Of a DNA stretch of 64,000 nucleotides, positions 58,556 to 63,328 are shown one piece after another. Position 1 is the first letter of the stretch. Every line of letters begins with the position of its first letter. This stretch comes from Peteryoungia algae (lineage in GTDB: Bacteria > Pseudomonadota > Alphaproteobacteria > Rhizobiales > Rhizobiaceae), in the NCBI RefSeq assembly GCF_030369675.1, contig NZ_CP128477.1, positions 4,110,501 through 4,174,500 on the forward strand, in the 5' to 3' direction. The translations under genes were made by a program, and so were the position numbers. Below the pieces are notes generated by a model. It worked only from the letters and a program-made list of their open reading frames with translations, was not told the DNA's origin and did no database searches.

Positions 58556-59302
58556 TCAGTTCGCGATGACGTGATGCAGAATCCGGTAGTCGCGACTTTC
58601 CTCCCCAAAGGGGATCACCGGCCAATCCCACTCGCCAAGCCCGGGCCCAAGATCGACCCCGTGCATCAGATCGACGGTCTCGTGGCGGGCTCCGCTGCGG
58701 TCCACCACGGTATAGCTGATGTCCGTAACAAGGCAGGTTGCAGCCGGAACCTGCGCCAGCCCCTCCATATGGGCTGAGATCACTTGAGGCACGATGGCAT
58801 TGCTTGCCGGATGCCCCTCAAGTCGCCGCGTTGCGCCGATGCCGATTTGTGAGAGCAGGTTGGCCGAGACGACGAGATCCAGATAGGGCACCTGCCGCAG
58901 GAAGGAGAGCGGTTCGAGAGCCTGACCGGCAAGGGCTGCATCAAGCCCGGAGAGATCCCGCTCGATCAGCCGGACGTTCTTCAATCCCTTCATGACGATC
59001 CAACAGCGCACACTGGCCAGATGCACGAGATCGACCAGCACGACCGTATCGAACAGCCGCGCAAGCTCGACCACCGGCACGTCGCGCAGCAGCCCCGAAC
59101 CGAGCACCACCACCGTCCGCTGCTGCCGGCAAGCTTGAGCCCTCGCCAGTATGGCCGCCTTTGTCCGTGTCTCATGCTCGACCCAATCCTTTGCGCAACG
59201 ATTGGCGCGCGCCCAGAGATTGACGGAGGACCGAATGAAGGGACGATGGGCAGCCGATGTCAGCGGCCAGCTTGCGGCATAGTTCAAAGCTTCGAGGATC
59301 AT
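58556..59302 (-). CDS. hypothetical protein with a methyltransferase-like Rossmann region
   Basis: A 248-residue cytoplasmic protein. VVVLGSGLLRDVPVVELARLFDTVVLVDLVH around residues 64-94 resembles a SAM-binding motif I-II, and YLDLVVSANLLSQIG resembles motif IV. No family recognised. It begins 4 bases after the end of the broken toxin gene. Confidence 0.65.
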   Translation of the reverse strand: MILEALNYAASWPLTSAAHRPFIRSSVNLWARANRCAKDWVEHETRTKAAILARAQACRQQRTVVVLGSGLLRDVPVVELARLFDTVVLVDLVHLASVRCWIVMKGLKNVRLIERDLSGLDAALAGQALEPLSFLRQVPYLDLVVSANLLSQIGIGATRRLEGHPASNAIVPQVISAHMEGLAQVPAATCLVTDISYTVVDRSGARHETVDLMHGVDLGPGLGEWDWPVIPFGEESRDYRILHHVIAN

Positions 59303-59305
59303 GTT

Positions 59306-59574
59306 TTACCGATAGACGGAGCTGCGATGGCCGGTCTCGACCACGAGGACGACGAGTTTTTGGTCCTGGATATCGCAGATGATGCGGTAGTCGCCGACCC
59401 GGTAACGCCAGTAAGCGCCCAGCAGATTCCCTTGAAGTGGTTCTCCGAGGCTTCTGGGTTGTCGTGTCTGGCAAGACGCTCTTCCAAAAACGTCACAATG
59501 CGCTCGGCATCTTTTCGATGCAGCTTTTCAAGCTGTTTTTCCGCCTTGGCACGGAGCTCAATGGTCCAGGCCAA
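59306..59574 (-). pseudogene. RelE/ParE toxin gene with a single-base frameshift
   Basis: The first ~47 residues ([26 protein letters not shown]..., in the start frame) and the last ~45 ([20 protein letters not shown]..., in the -1 frame, ending HRSSVYR) together give a normal 89-residue RelE/ParE toxin. The break lies near 59450, where GCCTCGGAGAACC would read through correctly if it were GCCTCGGGAGAACC (one G lost). As assembled, the start frame continues into a nonsense tail. The toxin is probably inactive, unless this is a sequencing error or a programmed shift. It overlaps the antitoxin gene by 17 bases. Confidence 0.82.
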
Positions 59575-59788
59575 GTCTCTGTTTCACTTCTGCGAGGGGG
59601 TAGGTAGGTTCGCCCTTGCGGATGCTCTCCATCGCTTCGTCGGCGGCGGCGATGTCTTGGAGATCTTCGAGATGTCGCTGGATCATCTGGCGCAGATAGT
59701 CATCCGGCTCGGCACCCGCCTCCCAGGCGTATTCAACGATCAACTGGTGCATTTCTTCCGGCATATCGATCGTGACGCGCTTGTTCAT
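59558..59788 (-). CDS. RelB/RHH-type antitoxin
   Basis: A 76-residue protein. The N-terminal ribbon-helix-helix is MNKRVTIDMPEEMHQLIVEYA; the acidic C-terminus, ending PLAEVKQRLGLDH, would wrap the toxin. GAGG precedes the ATG at 59788. First gene of a type II toxin-antitoxin pair whose toxin is frameshifted; the antitoxin remains intact. Confidence 0.85.
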   Translation of the reverse strand: MNKRVTIDMPEEMHQLIVEYAWEAGAEPDDYLRQMIQRHLEDLQDIAAADEAMESIRKGEPTYPLAEVKQRLGLDH

Positions 59789-59941: not shown

Positions 59942-61513
59942 ATGAGCGATAAGAACAAGAAGCCCCAGAAGCTGAAGGCCCGCCTGCCGCGTGGCTTCGT
60001 CGATCGCGAGGCTGCCGATATCCGCGCTGCCAACCAGATGATGGAGACCATCCGCGAGGTCTATGAGCGCTACGGCTTCGACCCGATCGAGACGCCGCTC
60101 TTCGAATATACCGACGCGCTGGGCAAGTTCCTGCCTGATAGCGATCGCCCGAACGAAGGCGTCTTCTCGCTGCAGGACGATGACGAGCAGTGGATGTCGC
60201 TGCGCTACGACCTGACCGCCCCGATGGCCCGTCATGTCGCGGAGAATTTCCAGGAAATCCAGCTGCCGTTCCGCACCTATCGCGCCGGCTACGTCTTCCG
60301 CAACGAAAAGCCCGGCCCGGGTCGCTTCCGCCAGTTCATGCAGTTTGACGCCGATACCGTCGGCGCACCAGGCGTCCAGGCCGATGCCGAAATGTGCATG
60401 ATGATGGCCGATACGCTGGAAGCGCTGGGCATCAAGCGCGGCGACTATGTGATCCGGGTCAACAACCGCAAGGTTCTGGACGGCGTGATGGAGGCCATCG
60501 GCCTCGGCGGCGAGGGGAATGCGGGACGGCGTCTGACTGTGCTGCGCGCCATCGACAAGTTCGACAAGTTCGGCATTGAAGGCGTGTGTCTGCTGCTTGG
60601 GGAAGGTCGCAAGGATGAGTCAGGCGACTTTACTAAGGGTGCCGGGCTTAAACAAACGCACATAGACTTCATCGCAAATTTGTTTTTGAAGACGAATGAC
60701 GATGCATCGACCCGACAGAAGCAATCAACCGAAGCCATCCGGCAGCACATGATGCTGCCATTCCAAGGTCTCCTCGGCGGAGAGAAGCAAAACGAGACAT
60801 ACTTGAACGGTGTCGACGAGCTACTTGCCCTCGGAACTCTGGTTGCGGCTGCCGGTTATGGACCTGATCGCATTCTCATCGATATGTCTGTCGTTCGCGG
60901 TCTCGAATATTACACTGGCATGGTCTACGAAGCCGAACTCACCTTCGACGTCACCAATGAAAAGGGCGAGAAGGTCGTCTTCGGCTCGGTCGGCGGTGGC
61001 GGGCGTTATGACGGACTCGTCTCGCGCTTCATGGGCCAGCCGGTCCCGGCCACGGGCTTCTCGATCGGCGTCTCGCGCCTGATGACGGCGCTGAAGAACC
61101 TCGGCAAGCTCGGCCAGGACGACGTGCTTGGCCCTGTCCTCGTCACCGTCATGGACGGCGATGTCGAAAGCATGGGCCGCTACCAGCGCTTCACGCAGGC
61201 TCTGCGGGCCGAAGGCATCCGCGCCGAAATGTACCAGGGCAACTGGAAGAAATTCGGCAACCAGCTGAAATATGCCGACCGCCGTGGCGCCCCGATCGCC
61301 ATCATCCAGGGCGGTGACGAGCGCGCTGAGGGTATGGTGCAGATCAAGGACCTGATCGAGGGCAAGCGCCTGTCCGGCGAAATCACCGACAATGCCGAAT
61401 GGCGCGAGGCCCGCGTCGCCCAGGAAGTCGTGGCCGAGGCGGACCTGGTGGCCAAGGTCAAGGAAATCCTGGCTGCCCAGGCGGAAGATCGCCGTCGGGC
61501 GAAGGGCGGCTGA
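59942..61513 (+). CDS. hisS: histidyl-tRNA synthetase with a compositionally foreign middle segment
   Basis: A 523-residue class II synthetase. Motif 2 region is [24 protein letters not shown], the HisA motif is [17 protein letters not shown], motif 3 is in [10 protein letters not shown], and the anticodon-binding domain lies after residue ~400. It charges tRNA-His, which in many alphaproteobacteria has unusual identity. Bases about 60600-60840 (insertion domain, residues ~220-300) are near 51% GC against ~70% in flanking lines, with rarer codons, and differ from the rhizobial pattern I know. First gene of hisS-hisZ-hisG. Confidence 0.95.
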
Positions 61514-61514
61514 A

Positions 61515-62636
61515 ATGCCCCTGACCGATATGCCGGATTTCGCCGGCACCATCCTGCAGGAATTCTCATCACGGGGCACCACCCGTGTTGACACGCCGGT
61601 AATCCAGCCAGCGGCTCCGTTCCTCGACATGGCGGGCGAAGACTTGCGCCGGCGCATCTTCCTGACCGAAAACGAGCGCGGCGAAAGCCTCTGCCTGCGG
61701 CCGGAATTCACCATCCCCGTCTGTCTGCGCCATATCGAAACGGCGACCGGCACACCGAAGCGCTATGCCTATCTCGGCGAGGTCTTCCGTCAGCGCCGCG
61801 AAGGCCCGCAGGAATTCTACCAGGCCGGCATCGAGGATCTGGGCGACATCGCAACCGCGGCAGCCGACGCCCGCGCGATTGCCGATAGCGTATCCATCCT
61901 CACGCGCCTTCTGCCGACCAGACCGCTCGCCGTCACTCTCGGCGATCAGTCGGTCTTTGAAGCCGTGGTCAAGGCACTCGGCCTGCCTGCCGGCTGGCAG
62001 AAACGCCTGATCCAAGCCTTCGGCAATCCGGCACAGATCGAACAACTCCTGCGGACGCTCGCCACGCCGACGCCGGTTCCAGGGCTTGATCCCGCGGTTT
62101 CGGCGCTTCTGGTGAAGGGTGACCATAATGCGCTCATCGCCCATATCGATGCTACCATGCAGGAAACCGGCTATCTCACCAATGCCAGCCGCACGCCGGC
62201 CGAGATCGCCCGCCGCCTGAAGGAGAAGCTCGAGCTGTCCGAAACAAGGCTCGACGGCGCGGCCCTGCTATTGCTGCGCGAATTCCTCTCGCTGGAGCTG
62301 CCGCTTGCCGATGCTTCGGCCGCACTCGCCGGCTTTGCCGATGCCGCAGGCCTGAAGCTCGGGTCGGCACTTGGCCGCTTCGACGAACGCGTCGCAGCCC
62401 TTGCCAGCACCGGCGCCGACCTCGACCTGATCACCTACCGTGCCGCCTTCGGTCGGCCGCTGGATTATTACACCGGTCTCGTCTTCGAGGTGGTCATTGA
62501 AGGCAAGCCGGCCGTGCTTGCCGGCGGCGGCCGCTTCGACCGGCTGCTCACCCTGCTTGGCGCGGAAAGCCATATCCCGGCCGTCGGCTTCTCGCTGTGG
62601 CTGGATCGAATTGACGCCGAAAGGAGCGCGACATGA
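61515..62636 (+). CDS. hisZ: ATP phosphoribosyltransferase regulatory subunit HisZ
   Basis: A 373-residue histidyl-tRNA-synthetase-like protein lacking the anticodon domain ([47 protein letters not shown], and [15 protein letters not shown]). HisZ partners with the short HisG to form the histidine-inhibited hetero-octamer. It starts one base after the hisS stop and overlaps hisG by 4 bases. Confidence 0.95.
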
Positions 62637-63328
62637 CCATCACCATCGGTCTGCCCTCCAAGGGCCGCATGAAGGACGATGCCTCCGCCATCTTTGAAAA
62701 GGCCGGCATGAAGATCATCGCTGTCGGCAATGACCGCTCCTATCGCGGCCGCGTCGAAGGTTTCGACGATGTCGAGATTGCCTATCTCTCGGCCTCCGAG
62801 ATCTCGCGCGAGATCGGCAATGGCACGGTCGATTTCGGCGTGACCGGCGAAGACCTGATCCGCGAAGGCCTGGCGGAAGCCGACGCCCGCGTCGAGATCG
62901 TAGCCCGCCTCGGCTTCGGCCATGCCGATGTCATCGTGGCCGTGCCCGAGATCTGGTACGACGTCGACACCATGGCCGATCTCGGCGATGTCGCCGCCGA
63001 ATTCCGCACCCGTCATGGGCGCCGTCTGGCCATCGCCACCAAATACTGGCGCCTGACGCAACAGCATTTCTCGGGCAGTCACGGCATCCAGCTCTACCGC
63101 ATCGTTGAAAGCCTAGGGGCGACCGAAGGCGCTCCCGCCGCTGGCCAGGCCGACATCATCGTCGACATCACCTCGACCGGTTCGACGCTGCGCGCCAATC
63201 ACCTGAAGGTGTTGTCGGACGGCGTGATCCTGCGCTCCGAGGCCTGCCTTGTGCGCGCCCGAAAGCCGGAGCACGAGGGCAATCCCATGATCGGCCGCAT
63301 CATCGAGGCGGTGCGCGGCGCACTCTGA
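62633..63328 (+). CDS. hisG: ATP phosphoribosyltransferase catalytic subunit HisG, short form
   Basis: A 231-residue short-form HisG catalysing the first step of histidine biosynthesis (ATP + PRPP). Landmarks are [29 protein letters not shown] and the PRPP loop [17 protein letters not shown]. It lacks the C-terminal regulatory domain of long HisG, so it needs HisZ. Overlaps hisZ by ATGA. Confidence 0.96.

Follow-up and report, generated by a model that had tools for sequence, protein, structure and literature searches.

The window, that is, the whole stretch of 64,000 nucleotides that was analysed, carries hisS together with two downstream histidine-biosynthesis genes. The 523-aa hisS product scores 372.6 bits against the TIGR00442 family (curated cut-off of 286.75, applied to the whole protein) and is therefore assigned to it. 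The genes and the parts of hisS are as follows.

58556..59302, minus strand: conserved gene upstream of hisS, 248 aa, a control without hypervariability
59942..61513, plus strand: hisS, histidine--tRNA ligase (HisRS) of alphaproteobacterial type, 523 aa (TIGR00442)
59942..60481, plus strand: hisS conserved upstream flank, aa 1-180, silent divergence at background
60482..60661, plus strand: hisS aa 181-240, protein mostly conserved, putative upstream recombination edge (from fourfold divergence)
60662..60811, plus strand: hisS hypervariable core, aa 241-290, unrelated between alleles
60812..60898, plus strand: hisS semi-conserved tail of the insertion domain, aa 291-319, putative downstream recombination edge
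60899..61513, plus strand: hisS conserved downstream flank, aa 320-523, with the remaining catalytic domain and the anticodon-binding domain
61515..62636, plus strand: hisZ, ATP phosphoribosyltransferase regulatory subunit, conserved operon partner and a control without hypervariability
62633..63328, plus strand: hisG, following hisZ

The upstream flank presumably holds catalytic motifs 1 and 2, and the 248-aa gene has no Pfam family at E 0.01. The HisRS structure predicted by AlphaFold2 has the fold of solved HisRS (this is the second model; the first was poor, with a pLDDT of 54.8, and was set aside). In it the tail of the insertion domain consists of the end of a helix at residues 285-303 and the strand that follows.

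An earlier note on this DNA had pointed to a GC dip of about 51% at 60601-60840 in the HisRS insertion domain. The dip is real: GC is 51.3% there versus 61.2% across hisS, and among 240-bp windows taken every 10 bp along the 64 kb, 0.5% reach a value that low. The figure of about 70% given for the preceding line was too high, with 58% in the preceding 60 bases and 65% in the preceding 120. Over 60650-60790, in the hypervariable core, GC is 49%, and third-position GC is 0.62 compared with 0.81 in the remainder of hisS. The placement at residues ~220-300 was nearly right: the stretch that lacks similarity between species covers roughly aa 241-290 (60662-60811), and different-allele pairs have elevated silent divergence from about aa 201 to 300.

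Extent of the variation

In the first genome search, matches to the window were broken in mid-hisS in several species of its genus. When HisRS from 110 loci (97 of them distinct) was compared with the window protein, mean identity came to 0.75-1.00 along most of its length and to 0.09-0.18 at aa 241-285, which agrees with the earlier description of a segment unlike ordinary rhizobial HisRS between two well-matching sides. In the window's genus, 34 HisRS genes (one from each species) sort into 21 core families that show no detectable similarity to each other: 10 genes have the short, common type that we call standard, 4 have the window type, two form a pair and 18 are singletons. These genus counts leave out G004, which had no match to hisS, and G018, whose gene is divided between contigs. 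The sample has one genome per species, and the pairs compared below are not independent.

A wider set of 221 sequences gave 45 families at 45% identity and 80% coverage, from the segment between two conserved anchors (9 of 230 sequences lacked the anchors and were dropped). This total is rough: single linkage through the conserved tail puts the window and standard types together in cluster 0, a problem that does not touch the genus count of 21. Totals from the clustering of all loci are equally rough, with 15 of 205 loci dropped and some unrelated cores merged. The whole variable segment ranges from 52 to 154 aa between alleles, in a set from which 21 of 338 sequences were dropped and in which the window and standard types were again merged in cluster 0. 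The very short 52-aa segment was seen in six genomes of several genera (L065, L143, L144, L145, L146 and L148).

Cores change while their surroundings hardly do. Among 198 distinct loci (L029, in which the gene is cut, was excluded here and from the first same-genus pair counts), 34% of the 627 pairs with a flank identity of 0.95-1.00 have a core identity <0.30, with gaps counted as mismatches. For example, L093 and L151 share 0.978 of the flank and 0.00 of the core, and L008 and L009 share 0.981 and 0.037, respectively. Members of one core family can be met in genera far apart. The core of L392 and L209 is recognisably common to the window's family and to another family of the order (E 2.4e-9; shuffled queries gave 0/360 matches at 1e-4). 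Two pairs with shared species names, P0058/P0097 (both named R. rosettiformans) and P0010/L072 (both N. huautlense), agree at 93-97% in their flanks and resemble each other in the core segment only at its tail, which, going by the record names, suggests polymorphism of the cores within species.

Controls among close relatives

Protein pairs were binned by median-window identity and scored for a lowest 40-residue window of <0.30, with gaps as mismatches in the initial counts; those for the window's genus, for the two other families and for genus g6 were repeated on gap-free columns. At a median-window identity of at least 0.90, 430 of 473 same-genus HisRS pairs have such a window (290/309 at 0.90-0.95 and 140/164 at 0.95 or above; 266/309 and 130/164 on gap-free columns). 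None was found in the AspRS of the genus (0/152 pairs, from 20 of 21 same-genus genomes), nor at 0.90 or above in HisZ (0/198) or in the 248-aa upstream gene (0/35). HisZ pairs at 0.70-0.80 include 4 of 1,830, and low windows in HisG were traced to two contig-truncated loci.

HisRS itself does not behave this way everywhere. In two other alphaproteobacterial families, 0/38 and 0/17 pairs (0/55 together) at 0.90 or above fall below 0.30. One of 22 pairs is low at 0.85-0.90 in one of them (f29), and at 0.60-0.80 about half and about nine tenths of the pairs have low windows, so the insertion domain is fast-evolving there too but without abrupt change between close relatives. A set of 118 Bartonella-type HisRS proteins gave 0/1,776 pairs <0.30 at 0.90 or above (41 are <0.50 in gap-free columns), and the cores inspected form one gradually changing type. 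For genus g6, a member of a different family within the order, the count at 0.90 or above is 59 of 94 pairs <0.30, dropping to 19 of 94 on gap-free columns because many of the g6 changes are changes in length. Judged by these comparisons, the hisS insertion domain is hypervariable across the window's genus, between genera of its family and in one genus of another family of the order.

Recombination and age of the alleles

Divergence at fourfold-degenerate sites was compared between 485 different-allele pairs and 36 standard-standard pairs, all from the window's genus. In the former it is 0.22-0.38 over aa 1-180, 0.55 over 181-200, 0.60-0.63 over 201-240, 0.73-0.76 over 241-300, 0.53 over 301-320 and 0.22-0.42 over 321-520. 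Silent divergence is thus raised at the edges of the core and returns to background within about 60 codons. The core values of 0.73-0.76 are what unrelated codons give and are uninformative by themselves. Standard-standard pairs have a smaller peak (0.46 at aa 201-240, 0.44-0.57 over aa 181-320), so part of the silent peak is not tied to allele differences, and at aa 181-200 both classes are raised alike. What is informative is that silent sites at aa 201-240 are more diverged in a part of the protein that is itself conserved, and that they return to background on both sides.

The window-type core is present in 6 of 63 genus genomes and also in N. galegae DS1499, Rhizobium sp. S152, N. huautlense and an Oricola (Neorhizobium, Rhizobium and Oricola). 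It needs 4 changes on the flank tree (FastTree, branch support not weighed). The standard versus alternative state needs 29 changes on a flank tree of 128 rows, and 200 shuffles of the labels need 35-50 (mean 42.4); on this tree the distribution is patchy, although less scattered than random. Recurrence of cores in distant species, together with the breaks at both edges, is explained by recombination that moves alleles, and these data support homologous recombination in the flanks as the carrier of cores between strains, species and genera.

The age of the window-type core is less clear-cut. Its dS exceeds that of the flanks in three of eight pairs (1.00 vs 0.46 in L001/L004, 0.92 vs 0.42 in L003/L004 and 1.97 vs 0.78 in L001/L033) and is lower in five, which include the nearest relatives L002 and L003, so great age is not uniformly supported. 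The core thus seems to have descended vertically among the closest relatives, and the signal at older splits looks mixed.

The earlier note had read the segment as a domain replacement by homologous recombination and took uniform vertical divergence in close relatives to speak against that. The two nearest relatives do carry the segment approximately vertically, yet breakpoints exist. Recombination as such is upheld by the identity breaks at both edges, the raised silent divergence next to them and the recurrence of the core in distant species. A replacement peculiar to the window genome does not fit a core shared within the genus and a domain that is hypervariable across the genus, between genera of the family and in one genus of another family. 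The interpretation in the note is partly supported, and one replacement is too small a reading.

Alternative explanations

The main rival to selection by an antagonist is relaxed constraint: the tip of the domain would be dispensable in this HisRS lineage, and unrelated DNA would be captured repeatedly and tolerated with no antagonist involved. Composition is in its favour. Alternative cores from 113 loci have a mean GC of 0.522 versus 0.624 in their flanks, and 82% are lower by more than five points; standard cores from 84 loci have 0.606 versus 0.632 (both averages include loci fetched twice). The GC dip in the window is therefore typical of alternative alleles. The wide range of segment lengths (52 to 154 aa), seven segments that fall in no Pfam family and low AlphaFold2 confidence in parts of the window core (residues 251-257 and 278-282) point the same way, as does a core dN/dS (Nei-Gojobori, own script, averaged over the core) of 0.14-0.61 in eight window-type pairs compared with 0.03-0.07 in the flanks of the same pairs. 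Against it, standard cores are strongly conserved (dN/dS 0 to 0.24 in 10 pairs, two of them saturated at silent sites), and other alternative cores are at 0.05 (L009/L012) and 0.06 (L011/L064), with six further pairs saturated at silent sites. By these ratios the cores are constrained protein wherever this is measurable, and the window type is less constrained than its own flanks. The same type of HisRS is not hypervariable among close pairs of the two other families or of the Bartonella-type set, and cores of one family turn up in genera far apart. Relaxed constraint is weakened by how strongly the standard core is conserved and by the lack of such a pattern between close relatives in other lineages with this enzyme, and we regard it as rather unlikely.

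A second alternative is co-evolution with an endogenous, polymorphic protein partner that touches the insertion domain. Variation confined to one module of hisS, with a constant tRNA, would suit it, but no allele-linked variable neighbour was found in the flanking genes, conserved across roughly 3 kb, and a core that moved between species by itself would be parted from its partner. This makes an endogenous partner improbable. Upstream of hisS, on the minus strand (59370-59788), the window has a DUF6290 gene, which we take to be antitoxin-like, followed by a frame, presumably toxin-like, that is apparently split over two frames. The DUF6290 gene was rejected as an allele-linked partner, as such genes stand beside both standard and alternative alleles in other species.

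Searches for a source of the cores were similarly negative. A protein-level search of the window's own genome returned hisS as the one match to the segment and no second copy. A diversity-generating retroelement target is unlikely, given that this protein-level search showed no template-repeat copy and the alleles also differ in length. The window core had no match in phages and plasmids or, by pattern search, in IMG/VR viral contigs, which tells against a core borne by a phage or mobile element in the sets searched. An intein or homing element was rejected, since the window segment and six long alternative segments have no Pfam match at E 0.1, and the best hit in a PHROGs scan of four segments had an E value of 0.063. 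A profile of the window core matched 60 of 397 genomes of the order at E 1e-4, at full length only in the window's own. The other 59 matches cover later parts (from position 24 at the earliest), mostly in frames of hisS length, the exceptions being one of 256 aa, one of 437 aa and one of 1037 aa. A region search of a large protein set, word-limited and weak, gave 2 of 18 candidates, both already known.

Two viral contigs (L310 and L311) carry hisS, one near a presumed integrase-like gene and both beside a gene that we take to be DUF488-like. Some Bartonella genomes seemingly have two hisS genes (P0121/P0128, P0122/P0130 and P0123/P0136), judging by pairs of proteins whose contigs have the same length. 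This lead was rejected as a source of the alleles, as the cores inspected belong to the ordinary type.

A single recent domain replacement in the window strain would account for the sharp change in GC and identity relative to many relatives, but, with the window-type core in other genomes of the genus and dozens of other cores in existence, it is very improbable.

The insertion domain lies over the tRNA acceptor arm in solved bacterial HisRS, which counts for co-adaptation with tRNA-His. So does the unusual tRNA-His of the clade: the accessible text of PMC3937112 describes an RRCH-clade HisRS/tRNA-His pair with A73 and no templated G at -1. The pair in the window's own genome, G000, conforms to this, in that its tRNA-His ends ...CAACCGTA-CCA and is preceded by T (A73, no templated G at -1). 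Within the genus, where the comparison covers 31 of 36 genomes, an identical tRNA-His (74 bases compared) is found in 24 genomes carrying 16 core families, differences in the remaining seven are confined to the T arm, and the genomes with the window-type core are split between two tRNA-His groups. One tRNA-His sequence with 16 core families contradicts co-adaptation at the level of gene sequence and leaves this explanation scarcely credible; nor does it support the altered tRNA recognition suggested earlier.

Among the tRNA-His genes compared (loci L336-L365 and L325), the changes in the seven that differ include compensated stem changes, perhaps left by integrating elements. Outside the window, at G000:C1:4012249-4027513 (L388), 49 bp from the 3' part of tRNA-His are repeated without mismatch at a distance of 15 kb from the intact gene. 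The copy is adjoined by an integrase-like gene, whose arm DNA-binding domain match is below the Pfam cut-off. Between the copy and the intact tRNA-His lie a flagellin gene and a mobilisation-like gene, the latter match also being under its cut-off. The region is a probable island integrated at tRNA-His.

Discussion

Comparison of hisS sequences brings out a multi-allelic module that recombines and that varies independently of tRNA-His within the genus. The best explanation, to which we incline with little more than balanced confidence, is long-term diversifying selection, favouring rare alleles, by an antagonist of HisRS that acts on this recombining insertion domain. The sequence evidence supports the first part of this picture, in which unrelated cores sit within an essential gene whose flanking parts are strongly conserved and are moved among strains, species and genera by homologous recombination there. 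The antagonist, for example a phage protein or an interbacterial toxin, would bind or modify HisRS through the exposed insertion domain. Since this domain is at the periphery of the active site, a HisRS-binding protein is a better candidate than a small molecule that inhibits the active site. Rare alleles would be favoured in the long term, and we infer that the allele in the window belongs to the rare, resistant ones. The earlier note speculated that the segment may evade a toxin directed at HisRS, and this is the kind of explanation that would fit best.

Many divergent alleles across species and a local peak of silent divergence (present, although smaller, in same-allele pairs too) are features expected of balancing or diversifying selection. 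A dN/dS above 1, also expected of diversifying selection, was not seen in the core averages of the eight window-type pairs (0.14-0.61). No antagonist or immunity gene for HisRS was found in the neighbourhood, phage, plasmid and genome searches. A bolder reading, which we consider quite possible but short of probable, is that the HisRS insertion domain in Hyphomicrobiales is the recognition surface for a novel class of agent that enters the cell and attacks or hijacks HisRS, with the dozens of alleles forming an immunity or compatibility locus spread by recombination.

Slow, vertical evolution is the expectation for an essential enzyme of the cytosol, and more than 20 unrelated domain alleles of hisS in one genus depart from it. 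The recombining alleles would point to a persistent conflict inside rhizobial cells that is unnamed in the literature searched. Titles and abstract openings, from a collection without preprints and many subscription papers, gave no report of HisRS hypervariability or of a HisRS-directed bacterial toxin. In practice, it is unsafe to use hisS for phylogeny or typing in the order. The alleles also offer a direct route toward the antagonist proposed here.

Several known systems resemble parts of this picture. The HisRS of the RRCH clade of Alphaproteobacteria is of the same enzyme family and fold and is paired with a tRNA-His with A73 and no templated G at -1. The difference is that here the core of the insertion domain is swapped for unrelated sequence between close species, which the accessible text of PMC3937112 does not mention.

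In type I restriction systems, the target-recognition domains of HsdS are swapped by recombination between conserved flanks. The hisS locus is alike in its conserved flanks, its unrelated and interchangeable domain and its recombinational exchange; it is unlike HsdS in that HisRS is essential and the window segment has no second copy in the genome. Phage receptors, flagellin and other surface antigens are under selection for rare alleles, and they share with hisS many divergent alleles spread by recombination. HisRS is cytoplasmic, unlike surface antigens, so the proposed antagonist would have to act inside the cell. Resistant aminoacyl-tRNA synthetases are also paired with toxins, as with agrocin 84, whose producers carry a second, resistant LeuRS. 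There, in the same bacterial family, a synthetase variant could likewise confer immunity, but agrocin 84 resistance comes with a second gene, whereas in hisS a peripheral domain of the only copy changes.
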